Of a DNA stretch of 64,000 nucleotides, positions 14,972 through 36,447 are shown one piece after another. The DNA is from Alteromonas naphthalenivorans (lineage in GTDB: Bacteria; Pseudomonadota; Gammaproteobacteria; Enterobacterales; Alteromonadaceae). Below the pieces are notes generated by a model that was not told where the DNA came from, did no database searches, and saw only the letters and a list, made by a program, of their open reading frames with translations. Both the position numbers and the translations under genes were made by a program. Every line of letters starts with the position of its first letter. The stretch's first letter is position 1. The DNA lies in the NCBI RefSeq assembly GCF_000213655.1, contig NC_015554.1, positions 4,092,001-4,156,000 on the forward strand. The letters are read 5' to 3'.

Positions 14972-16447
<1,476 letters not shown>

Positions 16448-19290: not shown

Positions 19291-19306
19291 TTTACCAAAC
19301 GGTAAA
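19291..19306. promoter_or_regulatory. Candidate RutR-like operator, site 1
   Basis: TTTACCAAACGGTAAA is a perfect 6-4-6 palindrome about 100 bp upstream of hyuC. The arms resemble the E. coli RutR operator (TTGACCAnnTGGTCAA), and a RutR-like TetR gene lies at 23642. The same arms recur at 24506 and 31544. Confidence 0.7.
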
Positions 19307-19460: not shown

Positions 19461-19476
19461 TTGACCGAATGGTAAA
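19461..19476. promoter_or_regulatory. Candidate RutR-like operator, site 2
   Basis: TTGACCGAATGGTAAA matches the palindrome except for one base (TTGACC arm, as in the E. coli RutR site). It lies 155 bp further from hyuC than site 1, so paired binding or looping is possible. Confidence 0.6.
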
Positions 19477-19602: not shown

Positions 19603-21102
19603 CTAATTGCTTGGGAAAGAAAATTGACTGCCTTCGCGCAAATTCGTTGAAGGCCAGCGTTGTGTAATGGCTTTTCTACGTGTGTAGAAACGTACGGAGT
19701 CCGGCCCGTAAGCATGTAAATCGCCAAACAATGAGCGCTTCCAACCACCAAAGCTGTGGTAAGACACTGGCACGGGTAACGGTACGTTCACACCCACCAT
19801 GCCCACTTGAACCTGATCGATAAAGAAGCGCGCGGCTTCACCATCGCGGGTGAATATACAGGTACCATTTCCGTATTCATGCTCGTTAATTAGCTCAAGT
19901 GCGGTCTGCATATCAGGTACACGTAGCATCACAAGTACAGGGCCAAAAATCTCTTTTTGGTAAATTTCCATGTGAGGTTTTACCTTGTCGAACAAGGTAG
20001 CTCCTAAGAAATAGCCTTCTTCAAAACCTTCTACACTAAGCTTTCTACCATCGTTAACTAAATCGGCTTCTTGGCTAACACCTGAGTCGATGAACCCACT
20101 CACGGTATCGAAATGTTGAGCACTGATTAACGGCCCCATGTCATTACTGTTGTCGTTACCCGCACCCACTTTTAAGGTTTCGATTTGTGCAGACAAACGG
20201 TCACGCAGGGTATCACCCATTTCATCACCCACCGCTAGTACAACCGATAACGCCATACAGCGTTCGCCGCATGAGCCAAACGCAGCGCCCATGAGTGCAT
20301 TAACAACGTTATCAACATCGGCATCTGGCATAACAATGGCGTGGTTTTTCGCGCCACCTAAGGCTTGGCAGCGCTTACCGTTAGCACTGGCTTTTTGATA
20401 AATAGCTTCGGCAACAGGCGTTGAACCTACAAAACTTACCGCTTGAATCGTTGGGTCTTCTAATAAGTGGTCAACGGCAGCTTTGTCGCCGTTTACTACA
20501 TTTAGCACGCCCGGCGGCAAGCCTGCTTCAGCCGCAAGAGCCGCAATGTATAAAGCGCTGGAAGGATCTTTTTCAGATGGCTTTAATACGAAGGTGTTGC
20601 CACACATGATAGCGCTTGGCCACATCCATAAAGGTACCATGGCCGGAAAGTTAAACGGCGTAATACCTGTCACTACGCCTAGGGGCTGGAATTCACTCCA
20701 CGCGTCAATGCCCGGGCCCACGTCTTTGCTGTGCTCACCTTTTAGCAATTGAGGCATGCCACAGGCGAACTCAACGTTTTCAATACCGCGCTGCAACTCA
20801 CCTTTCGCATCGTGTAGCACTTTGCCGTGCTCTTCACTAATCAGTTCACAAATTTTGTCACTGTGTTGCTCTAGCAATACTTTTAAGCGAAACATAACCT
20901 GTGCACGCTTTGCTGGTGGCGTGGCACGCCATGCTGGATAAGCCGCTTTTGCTGAATCTATCGCCTTTTGTACTAATGCCGACGACGCCATTTCTACTTG
21001 TCCGCACACCGCGCCAGTAGAAGGGTTGTGGATATCAATCAAATTTCCATCTTGCGGCGCTACGTGTTCGCCATGAATGAAGTGTCCTACCAATGAAGTC
21101 AT
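19603..21102 (-). CDS. mmsA: CoA-acylating (methyl)malonate-semialdehyde dehydrogenase
   Basis: This enzyme oxidatively decarboxylates malonate semialdehyde to acetyl-CoA and methylmalonate semialdehyde to propionyl-CoA, using NAD and CoA. The 499-residue protein has ITPFNFPAMVPLWM and the catalytic Cys282 in GSCGERCMALSVV, a Cys context typical of MmsA. It lies 45 bp downstream of the omega-aminotransferase gene, so the pair would finish degradation of beta-alanine (from uracil) and beta-aminoisobutyrate (from thymine). A paralogue lies at 59706 in a valine-type context. Confidence 0.93.
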   Translation of the reverse strand: MTSLVGHFIHGEHVAPQDGNLIDIHNPSTGAVCGQVEMASSALVQKAIDSAKAAYPAWRATPPAKRAQVMFRLKVLLEQHSDKICELISEEHGKVLHDAKGELQRGIENVEFACGMPQLLKGEHSKDVGPGIDAWSEFQPLGVVTGITPFNFPAMVPLWMWPSAIMCGNTFVLKPSEKDPSSALYIAALAAEAGLPPGVLNVVNGDKAAVDHLLEDPTIQAVSFVGSTPVAEAIYQKASANGKRCQALGGAKNHAIVMPDADVDNVVNALMGAAFGSCGERCMALSVVLAVGDEMGDTLRDRLSAQIETLKVGAGNDNSNDMGPLISAQHFDTVSGFIDSGVSQEADLVNDGRKLSVEGFEEGYFLGATLFDKVKPHMEIYQKEIFGPVLVMLRVPDMQTALELINEHEYGNGTCIFTRDGEAARFFIDQVQVGMVGVNVPLPVPVSYHSFGGWKRSLFGDLHAYGPDSVRFYTRRKAITQRWPSTNLREGSQFSFPSN

Positions 21103-21146: not shown

Positions 21147-22475
21147 CTACTTGCCCATTAAAGTGTCTTGCATCGCGTTAATTAAGGTGTCGATTTCCGC
21201 TTTTTCGGTGGTAAACGGAAGGCCTAGCTGAATAGTGTCGCCGCCGTAGCGCACGTAAAATCCTTTCTTCCACATGGCGTCAGCAATTTCATACGGGCGC
21301 CTTGCCGGTTCGCCTGGGTAGCTTTCAATGCTAAACCCTGCTGCAAATCCGAAGTTTCGAATATCACTCACGAATGGCATGCCTTTTAAGCTATGCACCG
21401 CCTCTTCAAAATACGGACTAAGTTCGGCAACCCGGCTAACAAGCTTTTCTTGTTCTAGAATATCAAGGGCAGCCATGGCTGCAGCGCAAGCAACAGGGTG
21501 GCCGGAGTAGGTGTAACCGTGTGGCAATTCAATGTTGTAGTCGGCACCGCCTGCGTTAATCACAGTGTCGTAGATAAATTCGCGAGCCAATACCGCGCCC
21601 ATAGGAACAGCGCCATTGGTGATCTGCTTGGCCACGTTAATCATATCGGGTACTACATCAAACGCATCGGCGCCAAATAAGCTACCTGTGCGGCCAAAGC
21701 CCGTAATCACTTCATCGAAAATAAGTAAAATATCGTGCTGGTTACACAGTTCACGTAAGCGGCGTAAATAGGCTTTTGGTGGAACGATAACCCCAGCAGA
21801 ACCACTCATTGGCTCAACTATTACTGCCGCAATATTCGACGCATCATGTAATGCCACCATTTCGATAAGCTCATCAGCAAGCTCTTCACCATAGTTCGGT
21901 GCGCCTTTGCAGAATTGATTGTTCGGCAACAAGGTATGTGAAAGGTGATCAGACTCCATGGCTGGCCCCCACATTTTTCGGTTTGCGCCAATGCCGCCAA
22001 AGCTAATGCCGCCCCAGCTTGCACCGTGATAGCCTTTCGCGCGACCAATAATACGGGTTTTAGTAGGCTGACCTTGCTGGCGCCAATAGGCACGAGCAAT
22101 CTTGGTCGATGTATCAGCGGCTTCAGAACCTGAGTTAGTGAAAAACACTTTATTGATGTCGGCCGGCGCCATGTTAGCTAGCCTGTCGGCTAGTTCAAAC
22201 GCCAAATTGTGGCCATACTGAAAGGCGGGCGCGTAATCTAGCGTTGTTAACTGTTTCGCGACTGCTTCGGCAATTTCAGGGCGGTTATGCCCTGCGCCGC
22301 ATGTCCATAACCCAGATAATCCATCAAAGATTTTGCGACCATTGTCATCAATGAGGTAATTGCCTTGTGCACCGGTAATCATTTTAGGCGATGCTTTAAA
22401 CTGGCGATTTGCAGTGTAAGGCATCCACAACGCATCCATTTGCGATTGTGATAGCTTGGAAGCCCACTGGGTCAT
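21147..22475 (-). CDS. Beta-alanine (omega-amino acid):pyruvate aminotransferase
   Basis: This class III PLP aminotransferase probably transfers the amino group of beta-alanine or 3-aminoisobutyrate to pyruvate, giving (methyl)malonate semialdehyde. With the start at ATG 22475 it has 442 residues; AGGA lies 8 bases upstream, although the frame is open to 22526. The PLP Lys is Lys283 in NVAKQITNGAVPMG, and the cofactor Asp lies in FDEVITGFGRTG. It closely resembles BauA-type omega-aminotransferases (FDGLSGLWTCGAGHNRPEI). It is divergent from a LysR gene, with a palindrome between them, and mmsA follows. Confidence 0.92.
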   Translation of the reverse strand: MTQWASKLSQSQMDALWMPYTANRQFKASPKMITGAQGNYLIDDNGRKIFDGLSGLWTCGAGHNRPEIAEAVAKQLTTLDYAPAFQYGHNLAFELADRLANMAPADINKVFFTNSGSEAADTSTKIARAYWRQQGQPTKTRIIGRAKGYHGASWGGISFGGIGANRKMWGPAMESDHLSHTLLPNNQFCKGAPNYGEELADELIEMVALHDASNIAAVIVEPMSGSAGVIVPPKAYLRRLRELCNQHDILLIFDEVITGFGRTGSLFGADAFDVVPDMINVAKQITNGAVPMGAVLAREFIYDTVINAGGADYNIELPHGYTYSGHPVACAAAMAALDILEQEKLVSRVAELSPYFEEAVHSLKGMPFVSDIRNFGFAAGFSIESYPGEPARRPYEIADAMWKKGFYVRYGGDTIQLGLPFTTEKAEIDTLINAMQDTLMGK

Positions 22476-22559
22476 AATTGTTTTCCTATGATATTTGTTC
22501 ACTTGGTCTACTTTACCTAGCCTCATAAGTTCGATAAATTATAAATATTCAAATCTTAC

Positions 22560-22577: not shown

Positions 22578-23507
22578 ATGCGCGCAATTCTTGGAAATCT
22601 ATCAGATACAGACATTCGCTTATTAAGAGTATTTATAGTGGTGGCGCAGGCTGGCGGCCTTTCTGCTGCCGAGCTAGAACTCAATATTGGGCGTTCTACC
22701 ATTAGCCGACATTTAAAAGATTTAGAAACTCGATTGGGTATGGTGCTTTGTCATCGAGGCCGTGGGGGCTTTTCGCTTACCGAAGAAGGAAAGCGAATTT
22801 ATGAATCGACTCAACGCTTACTGCTGTCTCTACAAGACTTTAGAAATGAAGTTAACGACATGCACCGGCATTTGCAGGGCAATGTGGTGGTAGCCATGTT
22901 CGATAAAACCGTGTCGAACGATGCGTGCAAGGTGAATGAAGCCATTTACACCTATCAGCAACAGGCGCCTAATGTGAATGTAGAAATTCATGTGGTGCCG
23001 GTTAATACCATTGAGCAAGGCATATTGGATGGGCGCTATCATATTGGTATTATTCCTACCCATCGTTCGTCTTCAAGCCTAAATTACTTGCCCTTGTTTG
23101 GTGAGCAAATGCATCTTTACTGCGGAAGAAAACACCCTTTCTACATTGAGCTTGGCGACATTCCTCGAGAAGAAATATGCGAAGCTAAGTATGCGGGGCT
23201 AAGCTTTCACAGCCCAAATATGGATAAAAGTATGTCGCTAGGGCTCAATAAAATGGCGGTAGCGAACGATCAGGAGGGCATTGCCACGCTGATTTCTTCG
23301 GGCTGTTATTTAGGCTTTTTGCCTGATCATTATGCGGAATCTTTCGTAAAAAAGGGCCAGATGCGTTCTATCGAACCTAATAATTTCGCCTATCATTGTG
23401 AATTCGCGGCCATCTATCGTAAGTCACCTAAGCCCACCCGTTTGGTTGAGTTATTTTTAGAAGCCCTTGCCAAGGAACATGGGAAGGAAGAAACAATGGC
23501 TATTTAG
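22578..23507 (+). CDS. LysR-type regulator of the pyrimidine/beta-alanine genes
   Basis: This 309-residue LysR-type regulator has an N-terminal winged helix-turn-helix (DIRLLRVFIVVAQAGGLSAAELELNIGRSTISRHLKDLE, about 11-49) and a periplasmic-binding-protein-like effector domain from about 95. It is divergent from the beta-alanine aminotransferase-mmsA operon, so it probably senses a pyrimidine-derived amino acid. The start codon is almost abutted by the palindrome at 22560-22575, and no Shine-Dalgarno is evident. Binding there would block its own translation start region or promoter. Confidence 0.88.
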   Translation: MRAILGNLSDTDIRLLRVFIVVAQAGGLSAAELELNIGRSTISRHLKDLETRLGMVLCHRGRGGFSLTEEGKRIYESTQRLLLSLQDFRNEVNDMHRHLQGNVVVAMFDKTVSNDACKVNEAIYTYQQQAPNVNVEIHVVPVNTIEQGILDGRYHIGIIPTHRSSSSLNYLPLFGEQMHLYCGRKHPFYIELGDIPREEICEAKYAGLSFHSPNMDKSMSLGLNKMAVANDQEGIATLISSGCYLGFLPDHYAESFVKKGQMRSIEPNNFAYHCEFAAIYRKSPKPTRLVELFLEALAKEHGKEETMAI

Positions 23508-23641: not shown

Positions 23642-24271
23642 ATGACAAAACCTACAAAGACGCAGGCCAATCGTGCAAAAACAGAGGCCGGAATTCTACG
23701 CGCCGCAGAAGAGGTATTTGCACAAAAAGGGTTTGCTGGCTCTTCAATGGATGCAGTTGCGCAACAAGCCGGCATCTCTAAACAGCTCATTTTGTATTAC
23801 TTTCCAGGCAAAGATAAGTTGTACCAAGCCGTACTAGAAAACATGATTGATTTATGGCTTGAGAAAATGCAGTTCAACGACGACCCAGAGGCTTCACCAG
23901 CCTGCACCATTCGTCAGTACATTCAGCAGAAAATCGAGTTATCTCGTGATTATCCCAATGGGTCAAAAGTATTCGCCCATGAAATTATTAACGGTGCACC
24001 TGTACTGAAAACCTATTTGATAGAAAATTTGAAGCCTGCGTTTGAACGAGACGTAAAAATTATTGAGCGCTGGATAGCCGCTGGCCATATTCGCCCTGTC
24101 GATCCTAAGCATCTGTTTTTTACCATATGGGCTGCCACGCAAACCTATGCCGACTTCTCAACGCAAATTCAATTACTGTTAGGTAAGCCGTCTTTAGAAC
24201 AAGATGACTTTAACGAGGCCACTGAATTTTTATGCAATTTCGTTTTAAGTGCCCTAGATGCACAACACTAG
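23642..24271 (+). CDS. rutR: RutR-like TetR family regulator
   Basis: This 209-residue TetR family repressor closely resembles E. coli RutR (212 aa), the uracil/thymine-responsive regulator. The N-terminal helix-turn-helix covers about 15-62 (MDAVAQQAGISKQLILYYFPGKDKLYQAVLENM). The effector half keeps RutR-type segments: LSRDYPNGSKVFAHEIINGAP, IERWIAAGHIRPVDPKHLFFTIWAATQTYADF. AGGA lies 8 bases before the ATG. It sits between the beta-alanine genes and the F420 operon. The four TTTACCnnnnGGTAAA-type sites in this window are its likely targets, with pyrimidines as inducers. Confidence 0.85.
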   Translation: MTKPTKTQANRAKTEAGILRAAEEVFAQKGFAGSSMDAVAQQAGISKQLILYYFPGKDKLYQAVLENMIDLWLEKMQFNDDPEASPACTIRQYIQQKIELSRDYPNGSKVFAHEIINGAPVLKTYLIENLKPAFERDVKIIERWIAAGHIRPVDPKHLFFTIWAATQTYADFSTQIQLLLGKPSLEQDDFNEATEFLCNFVLSALDAQH

Positions 24272-24334: not shown

Positions 24335-24600
24335 TTTCTACTCCCCCTACTTTAGCATCAGCAATAAACCAAATTAAGCCATTGTTATATATAAGATTTA
24401 GCAAAATTAAGCCAAGCATTAAAACCTACCCAACTCCCTACTAGCGCACCCAACTTGCTCTATTTTGAGACACACTTCGCACCAAAAAAACCTGCAAATA
24501 TTTTCTTTACCATTTGGTAAAAACCATGATAAAGATTAAAAAAGCAACAGCCTAAATTGAATATTTAGTGCATTAACCTTACTTGCAGGAGACGCCCATT
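24335..24600 (+). other. Promoter region of the F420 operon
   Basis: This AT-rich 270-bp leader precedes cofG and contains the operator candidate at 24506. A possible promoter uses the operator arm TTTACC (24506-24511) as the -35 element, with GATAAA (24528-24533) as the -10. In that case repressor binding would occlude RNA polymerase. No coding sequence is evident. Confidence 0.45.
24506..24521. promoter_or_regulatory. Candidate RutR-like operator, site 3 (F420 operon)
   Basis: TTTACCATTTGGTAAA is a perfect 6-4-6 palindrome 80 bp before the cofG start and has the same arms as the hyuC and TonB-receptor sites. It ties coenzyme F420 synthesis to pyrimidine control. Confidence 0.7.
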
Positions 24601-25758
24601 ATGCTATCGCGCCAACACGCCATTGCCCTTGAACATGCTACAGGTGCACAGCTAGATGCACTTTGCGAACAAGCTGCAGGCGTTCGCGATACGCACTGGC
24701 CTAATACCCTCACGTACTCACGAAAGATATTTATTCCACTTACAAACATGTGTAGGGATACCTGTGGGTATTGCACGTTTGTAAAACATCCAGATTCGGG
24801 GCAAGCCAATATCTTAAACCCAAGTCAGGTGTTAGCTTCCGTGCTAAAAGGTCAGGCGCAAGGGTGTAAAGAAGCATTGTTTAGCTTGGGCGAAAAACCT
24901 GAGAAACGTTATCGCTACGCGAAAGATTGGTTGGCCACATTGGGCCATACCAGCATGGTGGATTATCTTACCGAAGTATGTGAAATGGTGCTGGATAAAA
25001 GCTTGATGATCCCCCATGTGAATGCTGGAACGTTAACCTTTAACGAACTGAAACAGCTGAAAAACGTAAGCGGCAGCATGGGTATGATGCTCGAGTGCAC
25101 CAGCGACCGTTTGATGAAAAAGGGCCAACCCCATTATGCCTGTCCAGACAAAGTGCCAGGTATTCGCTTAAAAACGTTGGAAGACGCAGGAAAGCTAGAT
25201 ATTCCCTTCACCACCGGCATTCTTATTGGCATCGGTGAAACGTGGGAAGAACGTGTTGATAGCTTAATGGCGATTAACACCCTGTACCAAGAATACGGCC
25301 ATATTCAAGAAGTCATTGTTCAGAATTTTCGCGCAAAAGCCGGTACAGCCATGGCAAATGCACCAGAGCCTACCCTAGATGATATGCGCCGCACATTGGC
25401 CATGGCACGGTTAATATTAGACCCGGCTATTTCACTGCAGGCGCCGCCTAACCTAGCCCAAGAATACCCTCATTACATAGCGGCAGGCATTAACGATTGG
25501 GGCGGCATTTCACCGTTAACGAAAGATTTTATTAACCCTGAACGTAGCTGGCCGCAAATTACAGAATTAGCCACTGCATGCGAGCAACAAGGCTATGCAT
25601 TGCAAGAGCGTTTAACGGTATATCCAAAGTACCTACAAGCTGGCGAACGTTACGTTACCAAAGCGTTGCATCAAGCTATGCCAGCTTGGCGCAACGACGG
25701 CCTTGCCGTAGAGCAATGTATAGATAACACCACTTTTCAAGGAGTTGCTCATGGGTAA
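24601..25758 (+). CDS. cofG: 7,8-didemethyl-8-hydroxy-5-deazariboflavin synthase subunit CofG
   Basis: CofG is the radical-SAM subunit that, with CofH, makes Fo, the deazaflavin chromophore of coenzyme F420, from tyrosine and a ribityl-diaminouracil. The start is ATG 24601 because AGGAG lies 9 bases upstream; an in-frame TTG at 24583 also exists. The 385-residue protein has the radical-SAM cluster CRDTCGYC (Cys51, 55, 58) and the family segments SLGEKPEKRY and NVNAGTLTF-like PHVNAGTLTF. It is separate from CofH, unlike the fused actinobacterial FbiC. It opens a tightly coupled cofGHDCE-fno operon. Confidence 0.95.
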   Translation: MLSRQHAIALEHATGAQLDALCEQAAGVRDTHWPNTLTYSRKIFIPLTNMCRDTCGYCTFVKHPDSGQANILNPSQVLASVLKGQAQGCKEALFSLGEKPEKRYRYAKDWLATLGHTSMVDYLTEVCEMVLDKSLMIPHVNAGTLTFNELKQLKNVSGSMGMMLECTSDRLMKKGQPHYACPDKVPGIRLKTLEDAGKLDIPFTTGILIGIGETWEERVDSLMAINTLYQEYGHIQEVIVQNFRAKAGTAMANAPEPTLDDMRRTLAMARLILDPAISLQAPPNLAQEYPHYIAAGINDWGGISPLTKDFINPERSWPQITELATACEQQGYALQERLTVYPKYLQAGERYVTKALHQAMPAWRNDGLAVEQCIDNTTFQGVAHG

Positions 25759-27100
25759 CATACTGCAAAATATCACCTCGGTTTCACCTTGCGAACTAAC
25801 CCCAGCGGGCGACTTCACCTTACCGTACAGCGATACGCCTATTCAAAGTAAGCTAAGCCAACTTCGCCCTGCTATTGCACATATTTTACAGCGGGCTTTA
25901 GAAGGTAAAATGCTTAACCACGAAGAAGCAGAAGCCTTGTTTTACTGCCAAGGGCCAGAAACAGATGCCTTGTTGCATACCGCAGACATTGTGCGTGAAC
26001 TGCGCACCGGCAATGATGCATCCTTTGTGATCACTCGTAATATTAACTTTACCAACGTATGCCATATGGGCTGTCAGTTTTGTAATTTTGGGGTGAATAA
26101 AAACGCTGGCGATGCAGAGTTTTTAGCCCCTCATCAAGTGGCCGCTAGAGCCAAAGAAGCCCACGCTCGCGGCGCAACAGAAATTTGTGTTCAAGGTGGT
26201 TTGCATCCTGACTTACCTGCCGGTTTTTACGGTGATTTACTTGATACGGTGTCATCTACCGTACCCGATATTCATATTCATGCCTATTCGCCCTTTGAAA
26301 TTTGGTATGGCGCAATGAAAGGCCGCAAAACCTATACAGAATTATTAACCGACTTAAAACAACGTGGCTTGGCTTCTATGCCAGGTACGGCTGCTGAAAT
26401 TCTTGATACCGAAGTAAGGCGCAAGCTAACTAAAAATAAACTCAGCACCGAAAACTGGCTTAAAATCATCGAAACTGCGCATAACGTTGGCTTACCAACC
26501 ACATCCACCATTATGTATGGACATATAGATGGGCCATCGCACTGGGCCGCTCATCTTATTTTATTGCGTGACATGCAAGCGCGGACTGGCGGCTTTACCG
26601 AATTTGTTCCGTTAGGCTTTATACATAATGACAGCCCCCTTTACAAAAATAACCCTAGCGAAGTAAGAACCGGCCCAACTGCCGATGAGCATTTCAAAAT
26701 GCACGCCATTGCGCGATTAGTGTTACAAGGCTATATCGATAATATTCAAGCCTCATGGGTAAAAATGGGCCCAGATATGGCGTCAAAAGTGCTACGCGCA
26801 GGCGCTAACGACTTAGGCGGTACGCTAATGAACGAGAGTATTTCTCGTGCAGCAGGGGCTAGCCATGGTCAGGAAATTGTCCCTAGGGATATGGTGAACT
26901 TTATTCAGCGTGCGGGGCTAAACGCCCATCAGCGCAATACCTCGTACGACGTAGTTACCCCCTACGGCCGAGACAAAAAGCCAGCTCACCAAGAGGCGCT
27001 TGTGGGTTCAGAAGTTGCCAAGCCAGTATCTAAAACTGCCAAGCCAGCCATTAGTCCATTTAACGCAGCATCTCACATTCCCGTGAAGGTAAGCGCATGA
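25751..27100 (+). CDS. cofH: 5-amino-6-(D-ribitylamino)uracil:tyrosine transferase CofH
   Basis: CofH is the second radical-SAM enzyme of Fo synthesis, joining a tyrosine-derived radical to 5-amino-6-ribitylaminouracil. The start is ATG 25751, preceded by AAGGAG 6 bases upstream; the frame also has a TTG at 25745. The 449-residue protein has the cluster CHMGCQFC (Cys104, 108, 111), then CVQGGLHPD and AYSPFEIWYG typical of CofH/MqnC relatives. It is longer than usual (about 370), with roughly 60 extra N-terminal and 30-40 extra Lys/Ala-rich C-terminal residues. It overlaps cofG by 8 bp. Confidence 0.94.
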   Translation: MGNILQNITSVSPCELTPAGDFTLPYSDTPIQSKLSQLRPAIAHILQRALEGKMLNHEEAEALFYCQGPETDALLHTADIVRELRTGNDASFVITRNINFTNVCHMGCQFCNFGVNKNAGDAEFLAPHQVAARAKEAHARGATEICVQGGLHPDLPAGFYGDLLDTVSSTVPDIHIHAYSPFEIWYGAMKGRKTYTELLTDLKQRGLASMPGTAAEILDTEVRRKLTKNKLSTENWLKIIETAHNVGLPTTSTIMYGHIDGPSHWAAHLILLRDMQARTGGFTEFVPLGFIHNDSPLYKNNPSEVRTGPTADEHFKMHAIARLVLQGYIDNIQASWVKMGPDMASKVLRAGANDLGGTLMNESISRAAGASHGQEIVPRDMVNFIQRAGLNAHQRNTSYDVVTPYGRDKKPAHQEALVGSEVAKPVSKTAKPAISPFNAASHIPVKVSA

Positions 27101-28053
27101 AGAACATAGTGTTATTCGCAGGCGGCGTAGGCGGTGCAAAAGCCGCAAAGGGCCTGTATCAATCAGACTACAAAGATAACCTAACCATTATTGGCAATGT
27201 GGGTGATGACGACGAGTTTCATAATTTATGGGTGTCGCCTGACCTAGACACGCTCACCTACACGTTGGCGAACGAAGTAAATCCAGTCACTGGCTGGGGT
27301 CATAAAAACGACAGCTGCCGCATATTGTCGCGACTTGCTCAGTTTGGATCTAGTACGTGGATGCACTTGGGCGACATGGATATTGCCACCCATATTTTCA
27401 GAAGTGCTAAGCGAGCAGAAGGTACTAGCATGACGGCCATCACGCGCCAAATTACTACCCGATTAGGTATTACCGTACCTTTGCTGCCAGCTACCGACGA
27501 TACCGTGCAAACCCGACTCAAGACCGAAAACGGCTGGGTAGACTTTCAAACTTACTTTGTACATCAACGCTGCGAAGCTGATGTAACTGATATAGCGTAC
27601 AAAGGTGCAGAGTTCGCCTCTGCCACACCGGAAGTATTAGCCGCCATAGAAGCTGCAGACATCATTGTTTTTGCCCCTAGCAACCCGTTGCTCAGTATTG
27701 CACCTATGCTTGCTATACCACAAATTCGCGATGCACTAGCAGCAAGTGAATCCACGAAAATTGCGGTATCGCCACTTATAGGAGGAAAAGCAATAAAAGG
27801 CCCTGCTGAAAAGCTACTACAGCAAATGAGCTATACGCCGGGCAACAAAGGCATTGCTGAATTCTACCAAGGCCTGTGCGATGTATTAGTAATTGATAAT
27901 CAAGATGATGGCGACATAGACACCATCGAAAGCTTTGGCTTACATGCGCATTGCACGTCAACCCTAATGAAATCAGACCAAGACAAAGTCACCCTTATGG
28001 AAGAGGTTATTTCGGCGGCCACCGCTTATCAACTGGAGGTGCCTTGTGCATAA
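27097..28053 (+). CDS. cofD: 2-phospho-L-lactate (or related) transferase CofD
   Basis: CofD transfers a phospho-lactyl, phosphoenolpyruvyl or phosphoglyceryl moiety from its guanosine-diphosphate carrier to Fo, giving F420-0 or a variant. The 318-residue protein has the signature FAGGVGGAKAAKGL at the N-terminus, IGNVGDDDEFHNLWVSPDLDTLTYTLA, and FAPSNPLLSIAPML plus SPLIGGKAIKGPAEKL. Overlap with cofH is ATGA (4 bp). Length and motifs match stand-alone CofD/FbiA. Confidence 0.95.
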   Translation: MKNIVLFAGGVGGAKAAKGLYQSDYKDNLTIIGNVGDDDEFHNLWVSPDLDTLTYTLANEVNPVTGWGHKNDSCRILSRLAQFGSSTWMHLGDMDIATHIFRSAKRAEGTSMTAITRQITTRLGITVPLLPATDDTVQTRLKTENGWVDFQTYFVHQRCEADVTDIAYKGAEFASATPEVLAAIEAADIIVFAPSNPLLSIAPMLAIPQIRDALAASESTKIAVSPLIGGKAIKGPAEKLLQQMSYTPGNKGIAEFYQGLCDVLVIDNQDDGDIDTIESFGLHAHCTSTLMKSDQDKVTLMEEVISAATAYQLEVPCA

Positions 28054-28657
28054 ACTATGCGTTGTTATTCCAATGAAAGACCCGGCGTTTAGTAAGCAGC
28101 GCTTGTCACCGCATTTACCTGCCAGTGTGCGTAAAGCCTTAGCAATCAAACTGTTTAAGAAAACCGTTATGTCGTTAAACGGTGCGTTTCCTCAATGGCA
28201 GAAACTGGTAGTAACGCCGTCACTTTATATCGCCGATTTAGCCACCAGCTTGGGTTGCAAGGTCATATTCGAGCAAAAAGGCAGTAATTTAAATACCGCG
28301 CTTGCCCAAGCTACTGAGTGGAGTATGTCTCACGGCTTTACCCACCAGCTTATTTTGCCTGCCGATATCGCTCGGTTGGATGCAACCGAACTAACGTCAA
28401 TTACCTCACTAGCCTCAGGAGACACCTCTGTAGTTATTGGCAGTGCCTATGATGGCGGCACAAACGCGCTTTGCACAACACCACCAAATGCCATCGACTT
28501 TGCATTTGGTAAAGCGTCTTCTTATGAACATCATCAAGCTGCTATAGAAAAAGGCTTAAAGTGCGTAACGATACAGCCCAAATACCTAAGTCAAGACATC
28601 GACCATCCAGACGATCTTCGGCACGTGAATGACGTTATCGTCTCTTTGATTGCTTAA
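28046..28657 (+). CDS. cofC: Phospholactate/phosphoenolpyruvate guanylyltransferase CofC
   Basis: CofC activates a three-carbon phospho-acid with GTP to form the substrate of CofD. The protein has 203 residues, starts with GTG (GGAGG lies 6 bases before it), and has the nucleotidyltransferase opening CVVIPMKDPAFSKQRLS and LPADIARLDATEL (the metal Asp). Family members differ in accepting 2-phospholactate, PEP or 3-phosphoglycerate, and this cannot be decided by eye. It overlaps cofD by 8 bp. Confidence 0.9.
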   Translation: MHKLCVVIPMKDPAFSKQRLSPHLPASVRKALAIKLFKKTVMSLNGAFPQWQKLVVTPSLYIADLATSLGCKVIFEQKGSNLNTALAQATEWSMSHGFTHQLILPADIARLDATELTSITSLASGDTSVVIGSAYDGGTNALCTTPPNAIDFAFGKASSYEHHQAAIEKGLKCVTIQPKYLSQDIDHPDDLRHVNDVIVSLIA

Positions 28658-28667
28658 GGTAGAAAGT

Positions 28668-29450
28668 ATGCGAGCACTTACCATCAACACAATTGAAGGC
28701 CTACCGGATATCCGCGAAGGCGACAATCTTGTGGGCTTGATAATTGAGAAGCTTACCGCACAGCGACAGGTTTTATGTGAAGGCGATGTATTGGTTATTG
28801 CCCAGAAAATCATATCGAAGGCTGAAGGCGCGGTTTGCCATGTTGACGATATTACCCCAACGCAAGAGGCCATAGACGTGGCTGAAAAGGTGAATAAAGA
28901 CCCTCGCAAAGTTACGGTTATTTTATCGGAATCTACCCGCTTGGTAAAAGTGCATAAACACCCTGGCGCTAACGAAGGCATTATTCTTACCGAACATCGT
29001 TTAGGTCATATTAGTGCTAACGCAGCGGTTGATGAGTCGAACACCGATAACCCAGGCGAGTTAATTTTACTCCCCAAAGATCCCGACGCTAGTGCGCGAG
29101 AAATTGCTGAAAGTCTATGCAAATATTATGGCGCACCAGCCCACAGTATTGGCGTGGTGATAAGTGATACCTTTGGCCGCCCTTGGCGATTAGGCCAAAC
29201 CAATGTGGCCATTGGCGTAGCGAATGTGCCCGCCTTAAACCCACTTTTTGGTGAATGTGATGCTTGGGGTCGCCCCCTAAAAGTTACAGCGCCTGCCCTT
29301 GCCGATGAACTTGCTGCAGCTTCTGGCTTGCTGATGAGTAAACAAGGTAAGTGTCCCGTTATTTTATTCAAAGGGCTTGAATGGGAAAGTAACCCAGACA
29401 GTAAAGCCTCAGACCTGTTAAGACCAACCCAAGAGGATTTATTTGCATGA
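28668..29450 (+). CDS. cofE: F420-0:gamma-glutamyl ligase CofE
   Basis: CofE adds gamma-linked glutamates to F420-0 using GTP. I choose ATG 28668 as the start (260 aa), with AAGG 8 bases upstream; a TTG at 28650 is in frame. Family landmarks include [25 protein letters not shown], and the C-terminal [20 protein letters not shown]. It lacks the C-terminal nitroreductase-like domain of actinobacterial FbiB, so it resembles the single-domain archaeal type. It overlaps the fno gene by ATGA. Confidence 0.94.
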
Positions 29451-30127
29451 AGATTGCTATTTTAGGCGGCACTGGCCCGCAAGGTTCGGGGCTAGCGAAA
29501 CGCTTCGCCCTAGCGGGAATAGACGTCGTTATTGGTTCACGAGATGGTGAGCGGGCAGCAGAAAAAGCCCAAGCATTACAAGAATCTATTGCAGCGGCAA
29601 GTACCGCCACAACGGGCACCATCAGTGGCACAGATACGATTGCAGCCACATCGGCAGCGGATGAGTTCGTTATTATTTCAGTACCTTGGGCTGCGCATCA
29701 CGCGACCTTAGATGCAATCCGTCCATTGCTTCGCGACAAAATCGTTATCGATATTGTTGTACCGCTGGCAGACAACAACCCCAAAGCGGTTGCCATGCCG
29801 CCAGAAGGCTCAGCCACAGAATCTGCCCAAGCATTGTTAGGCGATGACTATGCCGTGGTAGGTGCGCTACATAATGTATCTGCTGTCACCCTTAACAACC
29901 TTGAGCAAAGCATTAACTGCGACATTTTGGTCTGCGGTAATCAGCTTGAAGCCAAAAATAAAGTCATAGCATTGCTAGATAACTTAGGTGTTCAAAGTTA
30001 CAACGCTGGCCTAGCAGAAAGTGCCCGCTGTATTGAAGCCATCACCCCCATTTTGATTCGCTTAAACATATCCAAAGCAGTGCCATTTAGCCATGCAGGT
30101 ATTCGTATCTGCCCACCCGATCATTAA
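29447..30127 (+). CDS. fno: F420:NADPH oxidoreductase (NADPH-dependent F420 reductase)
   Basis: Fno moves hydride between NADPH and F420. The 226-residue protein opens with a Rossmann motif [20 protein letters not shown], followed by IGSRDGERA (the Ser-Arg typical of NADP specificity), and has [10 protein letters not shown] and the family segment [13 protein letters not shown]. It is the last tightly coupled gene of the cof operon. In an aerobic heterotroph it would run towards F420H2, supplying the LLM oxidoreductase encoded next. Confidence 0.93.
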
Positions 30128-30257: not shown

Positions 30258-31259
30258 ATGGAATTTGGTATTACATTTAAAGGCTTTGTTAGCCCAGATC
30301 GTGCCCGTAAATTAGTAAAAATGGCCGAAGAAGCCGGTTTCGATTATTGCTGGTTTTACGATTCACACATTCTTTGGCGCGAGTCTTTCGTGGCAATGGC
30401 TATGTGTATGGAGCACACCACCAAAATGCGCTTTGGCCCCTGTGTGACTAACCCTAACGTACGTGACTGGTCGGTAGCGGCAAGCTTGTACGCCAGCTTG
30501 GCGTTGCAAAGTAATGGCCGTTTCGACATTGGTTTAGGCCGTGGCGATTCTTCCATGCGCGTAATGGGTAAAAAGCCTGCTAACCTAGCCCGCTTAACCG
30601 AATTCACTCACAAAGTGAAAGCCATGGTGCGCGGAGAAGAAGTGATGTACGGCGAATGCGAAAAGCCGGTTAAATTCCCTTGGGCTACAGGCTATGAACT
30701 GCCAGTTTGGGTGGGCGCTTATGGCCCGAAAGCCCTAGCAGTAGCTGGCGAGCATGGCGATGGTGTTATTCTTCAAATCGGCGACCCAGATTTAGTGCAA
30801 TGGTTTGGCCAACAGTGCCAAGACGCAGGCAACAAGGTTGAGCGCGACATGAGCGACTTCAAAGTTCAAGCGGCTGCACCTGCATACTTTGGTGACATGG
30901 AAACCTGTATTGAAAAAACCAAATGGTTCCCTGCCATGGTAGGTAATCACGTGGCTGATATTGTAGAAAAATACGGTACAGATTCAGGCTTAGTACCAAA
31001 AAGCTTAACCGATTATATAGAACAACGTCGTGGCTACGATTATTCAAAACATGGTCAAAGCGATAACCCTTACCTAGACTTTATTACCGACGACATCGTA
31101 AAAAGCTTCTGTGTATTAGGTGAAGCTGAAGATCACATTACTAAAATTCAGGCACTTAAAAATGCCGGAACCACGCAATTTAATATCTATTTAGACAACG
31201 GTGATGAAGAAAATATTATCACCCGTTACGGCAAAGAAGTTATCCCTGCCTTCCGATAA
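30258..31259 (+). CDS. F420-dependent LLM-family oxidoreductase, candidate pyrimidine reductase
   Basis: The 333-residue protein is a luciferase-like TIM barrel of the F420-dependent class, close to what I recall as the TIGR03842 (CPS_4043, Colwellia) family. It starts MEFGITFKGFVSPDRARKLV and has SHILWRESF, RFGPCVTNPNVRDW, the GLGRGDSSMRVMG loop used for cofactor phosphate binding, and PVWVGAYGPKALAVAGEHGDGVIL. GAGG lies before the ATG. It follows the F420 synthesis operon and Fno inside a pyrimidine catabolic locus with no dihydropyrimidine dehydrogenase, so I infer that it reduces uracil/thymine with F420H2. The substrate is unproven; LLM enzymes act on many molecules, including uracil (RutA). 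Confidence 0.85.
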   Translation: MEFGITFKGFVSPDRARKLVKMAEEAGFDYCWFYDSHILWRESFVAMAMCMEHTTKMRFGPCVTNPNVRDWSVAASLYASLALQSNGRFDIGLGRGDSSMRVMGKKPANLARLTEFTHKVKAMVRGEEVMYGECEKPVKFPWATGYELPVWVGAYGPKALAVAGEHGDGVILQIGDPDLVQWFGQQCQDAGNKVERDMSDFKVQAAAPAYFGDMETCIEKTKWFPAMVGNHVADIVEKYGTDSGLVPKSLTDYIEQRRGYDYSKHGQSDNPYLDFITDDIVKSFCVLGEAEDHITKIQALKNAGTTQFNIYLDNGDEENIITRYGKEVIPAFR

Positions 31260-31543: not shown

Positions 31544-31559
31544 TTTACCCCTTGGTAAA
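31544..31559. promoter_or_regulatory. Candidate RutR-like operator, site 4 (TonB receptor)
   Basis: TTTACCCCTTGGTAAA has the same 6-base arms as the cofG and hyuC sites and lies about 98 bp before the receptor start, overlapping a possible -35 element. Confidence 0.7.
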
Positions 31560-31656: not shown

Positions 31657-33975
31657 ATGATGAAATCGAAACAGACGCTATGCGCTTTAGCAATCGGATT
31701 AGCACTTCAATCTTCATACACTGCAGCAGCAGATTCGGTGGTACTTGAAAAAATTACGGTTACTTCGCAAAAGCGTGAGCAATACATAAACGACGTAAGT
31801 ATTGCGGTAACGGCATTTAGTGGCGAGCAAATGGAGTCACTAGGTTTTGAAAGCAGCACTGATCTTATTGCGTTTACGCCAGGTGTATCCCTAGCCGGTG
31901 ATATTGGTGGTCAACGTGCCATCTTTAACATTCGCGGTGTTGTACAAAACGATTACGCCGACATTGCTGAAGCTCCTGTTGCGGTATACGTAGATGGCGG
32001 GTACTTAGCCAGTACACAAGCGCAAACATTCGGTTTATTCGATATAGCCCGTGTTGAAATATTAAAAGGCCCACAGGGCACCCTTTTTGGCCGTAACGCC
32101 ACTGGCGGTATGGTAAATACAATTACAGCGAAACCTACTGAAGAAGTGGAAGGTTACGCTGAACTCACTTTCGCTAGCTTCGAACAAAAACGCTTTGAAG
32201 GTGCGGTATCTGGCGCATTAAGCGATAAAGTATCGGGCCGTATCTCTGTGATGGCGAACCATATGGGTAACATCCTTGAGAACGTGTACGAAGATGAAGC
32301 GGCCCCCGACACCCGTGCCGGAAGTATTGGTGGCGGCGAAGACGGTTACAACGACGATACCAAAGCTTTTCGTGCACAGTTAAACTTTGACTTAAGCGCT
32401 AATTCTAACCTTTTGGTTAGTGCAAACTGGGCCGATACCACAAAAAGTGAAGGCCCTTATCAGGTAGTTAATACCACAGAAGTTAAAGACGCTGCTGGTA
32501 ATGTTATTGATGTTATTTACGCCGCTGACGATCCTCTAGGCTGCGACACCATTCAAGCTGGCGCTTGTGTAGACGGTAACTTTAACGGTGATCCGTTGCG
32601 CCCAGTTCAAGGCGGTGACTTTAACGGTAATATCGACCCTGATGGTAGCGGTGAGAAAGTAAATAAAGACTTCGCCTTTGAAGATCAAAACAAAATTAAG
32701 TCACGCGGCCTAGCGGCAACCTATGAATATGATTTTGACGACTTCACCTTTACCTCGGTGACCGACTGGAAAAACTTTACCCGTGTTATCGGCCTAGATT
32801 CAGATCAAACCGCCTCACCAGAATTGATTTTCCAATCAGACGGCGACATTACCCAGTTCAGTGAAGAGTTGCGCGTAAGCGGCAACACTATGAACAGCAA
32901 ATGGGTGGCAGGTTTTTATTACTTAAGCATTGAAACCGACTACCTGCAAGGCCTAGCTGCAAGCCCAACGGGCGGTTATTTAGCCGGCGAAGAGCAAAAC
33001 ACGTTAGCCACCATTGATACCGACTCCTACTCTGTATTCGGGCAAATTGACTACGATTTAACCGACGAACTCGTGCTGGTATCGGGTTTACGTTTAGTAC
33101 GTGAAAATAAGTCGATGGATGGCCAATTGCGTCAAAACGCCAACTTGGTAGACCGTGATATTGAAGTAGATTACGGCATTGATCCATTGGTAGATGTAGC
33201 CATGGATAATGATGAAACCATGTGGTCTGCAAAGCTACAGTTAGATTATAAACCAAACTCAGATACGCTTTTATATGCTGGTATTAACCGAGGCGTAAAA
33301 GCAGGTAACTTCAACGCGCCTTTAGGCGGTAGTTTTAGCACCTACGACGCCGAAGTACTTCTTGCCTATGAAGCGGGCGCAAAGCTAACCCTTATGGACG
33401 GTAAAGCACAGTTAAACAGTAGTATTTTCTACTATGATTACTCTGATTATCAGTCGTTTTCGTGGGTGAATAATGCTGGCGTAGTGTTCAACGAAGACGC
33501 GCAATTTACCGGTGCTGAAGTTGAGCTACTATTAAACCCTATTGATGCACTAGACATCATGTTCGGCGTGTCTTACACCGATGCTGTGGTAGAAGATTTA
33601 GAAGTAGCTTCAGGCGTATTTGTAGACACCACGCCCCCTTACACACCTGAGTGGCAATCATCAGGTTTAGTACGCTACACATGGGATATAGACAGCGGCA
33701 GTGTTGCAGCCCTAGTAAGCGGTTCATACCAGTCAGAAGCTTTCCACAACGCAAGAAACTTTACTGCGCATACCATCGAAAGCCACTTCAAAGCCGATGC
33801 ACGCATTACCTGGACTGACAAAGAAGATTTATGGAGCGTAGCCGCTTATGTAGATAACCTTACCGATTCAGACCACGAATTAATTGGTTTCGACGTATCA
33901 GGCTTCTACGGAAACTCACAAATCTCTTACGCAAAACCACGCACTTACGGCGTTACGGTAAGACGTAATTTCTAA
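31657..33975 (+). CDS. TonB-dependent outer-membrane receptor of the pyrimidine/F420 locus
   Basis: This 772-residue TonB-dependent receptor has a signal peptide (about 1-25, ending TAAA), a TonB-box-like ITVTSQK segment, a plug domain (FNIRGVVQNDY, VEILKGPQGTLFGRNATGGMVN) and a beta barrel ending in the aromatic C-terminus VTVRRNF. It resembles the receptors for small organic nutrients that are common in Alteromonadales more than siderophore receptors. AAGGG precedes tandem ATG codons. Two operators upstream link it to the RutR-like and LysR regulators, so uptake of a pyrimidine, nucleoside or related compound is plausible. The ligand is inferred. Confidence 0.88.
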   Translation: MMKSKQTLCALAIGLALQSSYTAAADSVVLEKITVTSQKREQYINDVSIAVTAFSGEQMESLGFESSTDLIAFTPGVSLAGDIGGQRAIFNIRGVVQNDYADIAEAPVAVYVDGGYLASTQAQTFGLFDIARVEILKGPQGTLFGRNATGGMVNTITAKPTEEVEGYAELTFASFEQKRFEGAVSGALSDKVSGRISVMANHMGNILENVYEDEAAPDTRAGSIGGGEDGYNDDTKAFRAQLNFDLSANSNLLVSANWADTTKSEGPYQVVNTTEVKDAAGNVIDVIYAADDPLGCDTIQAGACVDGNFNGDPLRPVQGGDFNGNIDPDGSGEKVNKDFAFEDQNKIKSRGLAATYEYDFDDFTFTSVTDWKNFTRVIGLDSDQTASPELIFQSDGDITQFSEELRVSGNTMNSKWVAGFYYLSIETDYLQGLAASPTGGYLAGEEQNTLATIDTDSYSVFGQIDYDLTDELVLVSGLRLVRENKSMDGQLRQNANLVDRDIEVDYGIDPLVDVAMDNDETMWSAKLQLDYKPNSDTLLYAGINRGVKAGNFNAPLGGSFSTYDAEVLLAYEAGAKLTLMDGKAQLNSSIFYYDYSDYQSFSWVNNAGVVFNEDAQFTGAEVELLLNPIDALDIMFGVSYTDAVVEDLEVASGVFVDTTPPYTPEWQSSGLVRYTWDIDSGSVAALVSGSYQSEAFHNARNFTAHTIESHFKADARITWTDKEDLWSVAAYVDNLTDSDHELIGFDVSGFYGNSQISYAKPRTYGVTVRRNF

Positions 33976-34753: not shown

Positions 34754-35377
34754 ATGTCCGTGTCCGCATTGGTTAATAATAGGTTATCTCGTATGCAACG
34801 AGGAACACCATTTACAATAGAGAAATTTTATTCTCTAGGCTCTGTTACGGCTGTCCAAAAGGCAATGAGTAGGCTTACAAAAGAGGGGGAAATTGTTCGA
34901 GTAGCAAAAGGGATCTACTCTCGACCGAAACCACTAGCGGCCCTCCCATCTATTAAAATTACAGCTAAAGCTGAAGATGTTGCTATAACTTGGGCTAAGG
35001 CTAATCACTACAAGATGGTTCCTCAGGGGCTAGAGTCTGCCTACCGATTAGGGCTACAAACTCAAGCTCCATTAAAAACAGTGTTTTGGAGTTCCGGCCC
35101 TTCACGTGTATTTAAAGTAGGGAACGAAGAGGTTCAGATCAAACATACTGCTAATTTCAAACTTAGATGGCAGCATCGGCCTGAAGGAGAGTTGTTACGC
35201 GGTTTAATGTTCGTATCTCCTGAACATACTTCGATGCAACAATTGAGTACAGCTCTCAAACGTCTCAATATTTCACATGAAGAAAAATTGGTAGTGATAA
35301 ACAAACTGCTCAACAACAGCAGCTTAAGGACTTGGAAAAACAAGTTATCTAGCATAAAGCAGACCTTGACATCATGA
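34754..35377 (+). CDS. AbiEi-like antitoxin (DUF6088 family)
   Basis: The 207-residue protein resembles DUF6088/AbiEi antitoxins of type IV toxin-antitoxin systems. It has an N-terminal winged-helix-like DNA-binding region (VQKAMSRLTKEGEIVRVAKGIYSRPKP, about 32-60) followed by an AbiEi-type domain (YKMVPQGLESAYRLGLQTQ). Its last bases overlap the start of the AbiEii-type toxin (ATGA), a typical coupled pair. Base composition is more AT-rich than in flanking operons, consistent with transfer. AbiEi proteins usually repress their own promoter. Confidence 0.8.
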   Translation: MSVSALVNNRLSRMQRGTPFTIEKFYSLGSVTAVQKAMSRLTKEGEIVRVAKGIYSRPKPLAALPSIKITAKAEDVAITWAKANHYKMVPQGLESAYRLGLQTQAPLKTVFWSSGPSRVFKVGNEEVQIKHTANFKLRWQHRPEGELLRGLMFVSPEHTSMQQLSTALKRLNISHEEKLVVINKLLNNSSLRTWKNKLSSIKQTLTS

Positions 35378-36447
35378 ACTTATTTGAACTTTATACCGAT
35401 AATAAAAACTATAAAGATTTAACTGATATATTCACAATTGGCGCACAACAGCACCCAGTCGGCTTACCTGCAAACTTTTTAGAGAAAGACATTTGGGTAA
35501 CGGAGATACTAAGATTACTCTATGATGAGTCATTACTAGGTAATCTATCAGTTGCATTTAAAGGTGGAACCGCTTTAAGTAAATGCTGGAGTGCAATTTC
35601 GCGTTTCTCTGAAGACATCGATCTTTCAATTCACTGGGCTGACTTATCTGGTCTCTCTGAAGAAGATGAATTAAAAGCATGGCAACAAAGCACCACATCA
35701 AAAAGCCAAGCAAAAAAATTCAGAGATAAACAACAAAGTCTATTGGAAGACTGGAGTAATGAATTTTTAGTGGGTCTAAACCAAGAATTGGATAAGTACC
35801 AGATTGAAGGTTTATACGCTGAAATTGAGCCAGGTAGCAGAGGTGAAAAAATAGATATTCACTTCCCACGAACCACTCGTGGCTCGAATGATTACCAGCT
35901 CGATCATGTTTTGTTAGAATTTGGCGGTCGTAACAGAGGAAAACCTACGGAAACTTTGAATGTCGAGACTTATTTATATCAATGTCCAGATTTGAGTAAC
36001 TTGGAATTACCCAGAGCCAATGTTAAAGTTTTCCAACAGGATTACATATTATGGGAAAAACTAACGGCTCTTCATCAATTTTCTACACAAACAAAAGAGC
36101 CAAACCCTGTCAGGTTGGCTCGTCATTGGTATGATGTTGATTGTTTACTACAAAACAAATTTGCAGACCCGCTTGCAACAACTGAGGCTATGCAGGCTGT
36201 TATCGAAATGAAAAAGCACAGGTGGTCCACTCCAGGCGTCGATTTTGAAGCTATTTTAAGCGGTGGATTGCGACTAATTCCTGATGGTGAAAGATTACAC
36301 GCAGTCAATCAAGATCATGTAGAAGCTATCTCTGGAAAAATGTTTTTTACAGTTCCTGATGAGTTTGAGCATATCGTTTCTCGTTTGACCAATGCACAAA
36401 ACTTGTTCAACCAGCATACTAGACAATCAGAAACGACTTCAAAATAA
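35374..36447 (+). CDS. AbiEii/AbiGii family nucleotidyltransferase toxin
   Basis: This 357-residue DUF1814-type nucleotidyltransferase is the toxin half of an AbiE-like type IV system; characterised homologues modify tRNA acceptor ends or use NTPs to arrest growth during phage infection. The catalytic core FKGGTALSKCW followed by SEDIDLSIHW (GG...DxD) is intact at about residues 63-91. It is coupled to the DUF6088 antitoxin through a 4-bp overlap. No transposase or integrase is adjacent, though an Rhs remnant and an IS-like palindrome are. Confidence 0.85.
   Translation: MNLFELYTDNKNYKDLTDIFTIGAQQHPVGLPANFLEKDIWVTEILRLLYDESLLGNLSVAFKGGTALSKCWSAISRFSEDIDLSIHWADLSGLSEEDELKAWQQSTTSKSQAKKFRDKQQSLLEDWSNEFLVGLNQELDKYQIEGLYAEIEPGSRGEKIDIHFPRTTRGSNDYQLDHVLLEFGGRNRGKPTETLNVETYLYQCPDLSNLELPRANVKVFQQDYILWEKLTALHQFSTQTKEPNPVRLARHWYDVDCLLQNKFADPLATTEAMQAVIEMKKHRWSTPGVDFEAILSGGLRLIPDGERLHAVNQDHVEAISGKMFFTVPDEFEHIVSRLTNAQNLFNQHTRQSETTSK

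Follow-up and report, generated by a model that had tools for sequence, protein, structure and literature searches.

The window analysed here, 64,000 nucleotides of the genome of Alteromonas naphthalenivorans (NCBI RefSeq assembly GCF_000213655.1, contig NC_015554.1, positions 4,092,001 to 4,156,000), carries a genuine open reading frame at 30258-31259 of the forward strand. Its 333-amino-acid product is an LLM-class oxidoreductase (TIGR03842, 520 bits; cut-off 295), and this protein is very probably an F420H2:uracil oxidoreductase, probably active on thymine as well, that replaces dihydropyrimidine dehydrogenase (PydA/PreTA). Several observations speak for this assignment. Neither PreA nor RutA was found genome-wide. 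The LLM gene changes places with preT-preA in relatives. NpdG or a relative of Fgd, encoded beside it, points to F420H2 as the donor. In addition, the LLM gene stands beside genes for the dihydropyrimidinase HydA or the ureidopropionase-type amidohydrolase HyuC in several phyla. An original prediction made from the sequence of the window had proposed an F420H2-dependent uracil/thymine reductase, and the absence of PreA and RutA, the exchange with preTA, shared palindromes and the coupling to NpdG or Fgd all speak for it. The reaction would be F420H2 + uracil -> dihydrouracil, and the evidence does not distinguish between uracil, thymine and cytosine as substrates.

Absence of the usual first enzyme

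The A. naphthalenivorans genome is a single contig of 4.97 Mb and is 100% complete. A PreA profile search of the whole genome at 1e-60 gave no match, and E. coli PreA used as a query found one protein, at 27% identity (E=3.8e-4), which is the biosynthetic quinone-dependent PyrD. The original prediction had noted that PreTA/PydA is missing from the cluster; this holds, and within the sensitivity of the searches the entire genome lacks PreA too, with PyrD as the only weak match. RutA was likewise sought in the whole genome with TIGR03612, with 0 matches at E <= 0.001.

Exchange with preT-preA in two families

In a class-wide survey, LLM was over its cut-off in only one of 274 genomes, that of the window itself. 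A single genome does not allow a profile test, and the comparison was moved to the family level. Among 147 genomes of the window's own family, HydA was over its cut-off in 11. LLM occurs in three genomes of the family (G000, G337 and G442), all of which have HydA and lack PreA, and PreA was over its cut-off in seven of the other eight HydA genomes. In G395 PreT is present and PreA is interrupted by the contig end; G446 has PreA without HydA. In the own-family HydA genomes read at length, preT-preA lies inside clusters with the genes for HydA, the NCS1-type transporter, AptA, MmsA and HyuC.

The second sample consisted of 295 genomes from the family of Paracoccus denitrificans, with LLM in 13, PreA in 238 and HydA in 259. 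PreA was present in 2 of the 13 LLM genomes versus 236 of the 282 others (p=3.4e-7) and, when only HydA genomes are counted, in 2 of 12 with LLM versus 228 of 247 without (p=3.6e-9), although these p-values overstate independence because the genomes are related. Both exceptions, G575 and G704, possess a PreA-HydA-HyuC cluster in addition to the pathway cluster on the LLM side. On other contigs of these genomes, an AptA-HyuC-HydA-NCS1 block follows a pntB piece, and the LLM block starts with a piece of pntA or pntB. These split blocks match the joined cluster of a Leisingera plasmid, NCS1-hydA-hyuC-aptA-pntAB / cofGHDCE-npdG-LLM-tetR. The contig of G704 (L033) is itself Leisingera-like; its record title, Nocardioides marinus DP1N28-1, looks wrong.

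Neighbourhood across phyla

Relatives of LLM abound: of 8000 candidates scored, 7428 reach E <= 0.001. The best 80 of the relatives found are referred to as the named loci, and their neighbours were read by tblastn. Linkage was counted by group on those named loci that extend at least 9.8 kb to either side. HydA or HyuC is encoded at 15 of 19 gammaproteobacterial loci, at 12 of 18 alphaproteobacterial ones (L054 and L059 by 27-32% identity only), at 5 of 5 Chloroflexi-and-other loci and at 0 of 10 Devosia-type loci. This linkage exceeds chance. In the gammaproteobacterial misses (L010, L021, L025 and L087), MmsA, AptA and RutR adjoin the cof operon, as they do in the window, where HydA and LLM are 14 kb apart. 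The link can also be direct: at L031, L032 and L065, LLM comes after hydA in the same orientation and the locus lacks cof genes; the genomes concerned (G018, G019 and G037) do carry CofH. On a Streptomyces plasmid (L008), a hydA-like gene, so labelled from 37% identity, ends some 30 nt ahead of an LLM gene whose product is 44% identical. PreA or PreT was found by tblastn on none of the best 80 named loci.

At six loci (L072, L074, L075, L076, L080 and L083), from Chloroflexota-type metagenome-assembled genomes (MAGs) and a cyanobacterial MAG, LLM adjoins a dihydropyrimidinase-type gene, and their genomes have no CofH match.

Supply and reduction of F420

In the window, LLM starts 130 nt after the cofGHDCE-npdG operon, all six products of which score over curated cut-offs, so that the host genome has the complete F420 synthesis set (CofG, H, D, C and E) together with NpdG. 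CofH is present in 53 of 63 LLM genomes versus 0 of 17 genomes without LLM (p=8e-11); in the window's own family the numbers are 3 of 3 LLM genomes versus 0 of 9 PreA-type genomes. No search for F420 enzymes of other folds was made in the genome, and we do not claim LLM as its sole F420 user.

A different supply is seen in Devosia-type relatives. At all ten Devosia-type loci, LLM occurs together with CofE, a Peripla_BP_2 protein and a FecCD-type permease, the last two forming a putative F420-0 ABC importer. A relative of Fgd is found at nine of the ten, the copy at L066 with only 34% identity. For example, L058 (5112-10999) has Fgd, CofE, the putative importer and LLM in one block, as in nine other Devosia-type loci. 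This looks like F420-0 scavenging, and CofH was absent from all three genomes tested. In a Mesorhizobium MAG (L067, 8964-10996), an Fgd relative stands directly before LLM, at the usual place of NpdG. An F420-reducing enzyme beside LLM, be it NpdG or an Fgd relative, points to consumption of F420H2 by LLM, and hence to a reductase.

The pntAB transhydrogenase genes were also noticed within LLM clusters of Leisingera (L006, 7254-10271) and Halomonas (L017, 12422-15216), which fits a need of NADPH for F420 reduction.

Probable regulation by a RutR-type protein

Palindromes were assigned by what we take to be the consensus letters of RutR. With the pattern TTTACC-N4-GGTAAA and at most one mismatch, the window has 4 sites versus 0.30 expected: putative RutR-type palindromes at 24506-24521, 77 nt before the cofG start, at 19291-19306 and 19461-19476 (the latter with one mismatch) upstream of hyuC, and at 31544-31559 before a TonB receptor gene. 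A slightly wider pattern has 50 sites in the window plus L006-L089 (1.66 Mb, including loci that are near-copies of one another), whereas three Markov-sampled sets gave one site apiece. The palindrome recurs in different genera: within the best 80 named loci, 46 palindromes fall in 33 loci, and for 35 of the sites a cof or pyd gene starts no more than 350 nt downstream; of the 37 loci with cofG, 17 have a palindrome before it. The related TTGACC-N4-GGTCAA lies before preT, hydA or aptA in five of seven own-family PreA clusters (L136, L138, L139, L141 and L142), and none is at such places in L137 and L140. A palindrome of this kind is also upstream of the LLM gene block in 7 of 10 Devosia-type loci. 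In the promoter region of E. coli rutA the best fit to the presumed consensus has 3 mismatches, as good a fit as chance would give, and a simple sigma-70 scan was uninformative (20 promoter-like sites versus 29 in shuffles).

The window's RutR-like protein and RutR of E. coli share 38% identity. According to the accessible text of a study of the E. coli protein, its uracil contacts are W77, Y97, W167, Q171 and Q179 (PMC10891134). All five are kept in the window regulator, as W72, Y93, W163, Q167 and Q175. The putative sites on both operons, together with the kept contacts, suggest one uracil-sensing regulator common to cofactor synthesis and pyrimidine breakdown.

A TonB-dependent receptor gene (31657-33975, +; PF00593 and PF07715, below all NCBIfam cut-offs) lies 0.4 kb downstream of LLM, with a palindrome before it. 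The receptor may be a member of the regulon, serving outer-membrane uptake perhaps of pyrimidines or nucleosides.

Gene organization of the window

The F420 genes are all on the forward strand: cofG (24583-25758; TIGR03550, score 466 over a cut-off of 213), cofH (25745-27100; TIGR03551, 468 over 374), cofD (27097-28053; TIGR01819, 278 over 257), cofC (28046-28657; TIGR03552, 142 over 105), cofE for the F420-0 gamma-glutamyl ligase (28650-29450; TIGR01916, 251 over 181) and npdG for the NADPH:F420 oxidoreductase NpdG/Fno (29447-30127; TIGR01915, 197 over 150). Upstream of them, on the opposite strand, are the genes for the AptA-type omega-aminotransferase acting on beta-alanine (21147-22526; NF052567, 684 over 500), the (methyl)malonate-semialdehyde dehydrogenase MmsA (19603-21102; TIGR01722, 648 over 448), HyuC (17920-19194; TIGR01879, 429 over 204, and NF006769, 588 over 452), the NCS1-type nucleobase transporter (16448-17923; TIGR00800, 327, slightly below the cut-off of 353) and HydA (14972-16423; TIGR02033, 584 over 393). 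HyuC exceeds the cut-offs of both hydantoinase/carbamoylase and allantoate amidohydrolase models, so the profiles do not separate its substrate. Between the catabolic and cof blocks lie a LysR-type regulator gene (22578-23507, +; below all profile cut-offs) and the gene for the RutR-like TetR regulator (23642-24271, +; best profiles RutR, all below cut-offs). The neighbours on which the original prediction relied, HydA, HyuC, the aminotransferase, MmsA and Fno, are all confirmed by these profile scores at the positions it gave. Further downstream, at 34754-36447, lies an AbiE-like toxin-antitoxin pair, with a DUF6088 protein encoded first and an AbiEii-type nucleotidyltransferase after it.

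The LLM protein and its fold

TIGR03842 (CPS_4043 type) is an LLM family entered in NCBIfam as a hypothetical equivalog. The predicted structure of the window's member (model pLDDT 89.2) is closest in fold to the F420-dependent Mer, and RutA with uracil is more distant. Region 223-280 corresponds to the lid and is rich in invariant residues. At the position of Glu6 of Mer, the family has Thr in 28 and Cys in 22 of 50 alignment rows. Mer activity itself was considered and rejected, as the Mer profile TIGR03555 gives 123 bits, below its cut-off of 349, and Glu6 is not present. A search of the A. naphthalenivorans genome with the TIGR03842 profile also found a second LLM protein, which is MsnO8-type, not an F420 model.

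Points against the proposal and alternative explanations

Several observations weigh against the proposal. No CofH match was found in 10 of the 63 LLM genomes. Three of these are Devosia-type with the import operon (G029, G033 and G038) and one is a single-cell genome (G031); the other six, G042 and G044-G048, of which five are Chloroflexota-type and one is a cyanobacterial MAG, have HydA beside LLM and are unexplained. In the Paracoccus denitrificans family, 19 of 259 HydA genomes have neither LLM nor PreA. Among 50 LLM genomes that we chose from the 80 named ones, PreA was over its cut-off in four, and four more have PreA-like matches below the cut-off (E 1e-41 to 1e-64), possibly reductases. 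HydA/HyuC is within 10 kb at 0 of 10 Devosia-type loci. As for regulation, the palindrome is lacking in the 350 nt ahead of cofG at 20 of the 37 named loci that have this gene, it is also lacking on the LLM contigs of G575 and G704, and the RutR-like protein is below the RutR cut-offs (TIGR03613, 199 versus 368; NF011584, 173 versus 230). Finally, the best HyuC profile, NF006769, carries the name allantoate amidohydrolase.

This last point touches the alternative that LLM reduces another heterocycle feeding HydA and HyuC, such as purine-derived yanthine or a modified pyrimidine, with uracil not the main substrate. A luciferase-family F420 reductase has been proposed for yanthine in Chloroflexota, as far as the accessible text of that work goes (PMC12507026), and the profiles of both HyuC and the transporter include allantoate/allantoin models. 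However, LLM swaps with preTA inside the same clusters, AptA and MmsA suit beta-alanine and 3-aminoisobutyrate, and the regulator retains the uracil contacts of RutR, so that another main substrate is unlikely. An allantoin or hydantoin pathway was rejected, since the uracil contacts, AptA, MmsA and the preTA exchange favour pyrimidines.

Alternatively, LLM may have another F420 role and be adjacent by chance or shared mobility; the actual first enzyme would then be some other protein encoded elsewhere. HydA is indeed not near LLM in Paracoccus alcaliphilus (L007) or, as noted, at the Devosia-type loci. But this explanation is very unlikely in view of the avoidance of PreA genome-wide in two families, the palindromes on both operons and the direct hydA-LLM operons.

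It is also conceivable that at least part of the family reduces uracil with FMN or another cofactor and has F420 genes adjacent for other reasons. The six LLM-HydA genomes in which CofH gave no match would agree with this, as would the LLM-hydA operons without nearby cof genes (L031, L032, L065, L075 and L008). Against it, the genomes of L031, L032 and L065 contain CofH, Devosia-type loci without synthesis retain CofE, the import of F420-0 and, in most cases, a relative of Fgd, and the closest structures are F420 enzymes, which makes a different cofactor highly improbable. The F420 part of our proposal nevertheless stops short of the distant Chloroflexota-type members, in whose genomes no CofH match was found. 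A RutA-like FMN monooxygenase opening the uracil ring oxidatively is hardly credible and was rejected, given that the genome has no RutA profile match and RutA is further off in fold.

Proposed pathway and its meaning

In the pathway proposed for the window, NpdG would reduce F420 with NADPH, and F420H2 bound in the TIM barrel of LLM would pass a hydride to C6 of the pyrimidine, while a pocket residue would protonate C5 to give dihydrouracil or dihydrothymine. HydA would then open the ring, HyuC would take off the carbamoyl group, and AptA with MmsA would convert beta-alanine or 3-aminoisobutyrate into acyl-CoA. The RutR-type regulator, acting at the palindromes before hyuC and cofG, would turn on the pathway together with the cofactor of its first enzyme.

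In a wider frame, it is likely that in many Proteobacteria F420 is dedicated to pyrimidine catabolism, its synthesis being uracil-inducible within a RutR-type regulon and serving mainly the LLM reductase. Devosia-type relatives would have lost the synthesis and would import F420-0, finish it with CofE and reduce it with Fgd for the same step. Uracil reduction would thereby have a third kind of donor, F420H2, besides NAD(P)H and ferredoxin.

The Outlook of a 2021 review counts the purpose of F420 in Proteobacteria and Chloroflexi among the unanswered questions, and the word uracil is absent from its main text, as far as that text is accessible (PMC8498797). Literature searches on this point among open-licence PMC papers gave no report of an F420-dependent uracil reductase in pyrimidine catabolism; one may be in print elsewhere. 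If the proposal is true, uracil and thymine breakdown is a concrete answer to the purpose of F420 in many Proteobacteria, the unnamed family TIGR03842 has a function, and uracil reduction has, besides a third electron donor, a protein fold unrelated to that of the usual enzyme. A further prediction of the proposal is that a uracil-sensing regulator controls the supply of F420, whether made or imported.

Comparison with known systems

RutA differs from the proposed enzyme in using FMN and oxygen for oxidative ring opening, and is absent from this genome. SSGG-03002 and NpsU of the mureidomycin and napsamycin clusters are, in the accessible text, described as putative F420/FMN oxidoreductases with an in vivo role in reduction of the C5=C6 bond of the uracil ring (PMC10714638). 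The likeness to LLM is drawn from this description; their substrate is a nucleoside antibiotic, and that text reports that no in vitro activity was obtained (PMC10714638). The putative yanthine reductase of Chloroflexota is, like LLM, a luciferase-family stand-in for a reductase of the YgfK/PydA type; however, its substrate is purine-derived, it was proposed from gene neighbourhood, and the accessible text makes no claim on uracil (PMC12507026). Mer is the nearest protein in sequence and fold, with F420H2 as its hydride donor. Glu6 is given as its catalytic acid in the accessible text of PMC11094777, whereas all 50 LLM rows have Thr or Cys there. The donors described for uracil reduction are NAD(P)H or, in the variant PydAc, ferredoxin, according to the accessible text of PMC7332683. 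PydA/PreTA and PydAc share with LLM the proposed reaction, the step in the pathway and the place in the gene cluster. PydA/PreTA is built from a DHO_dh/FMN domain plus Fe-S domains, whereas LLM is an unrelated TIM barrel with F420H2 as its proposed donor.
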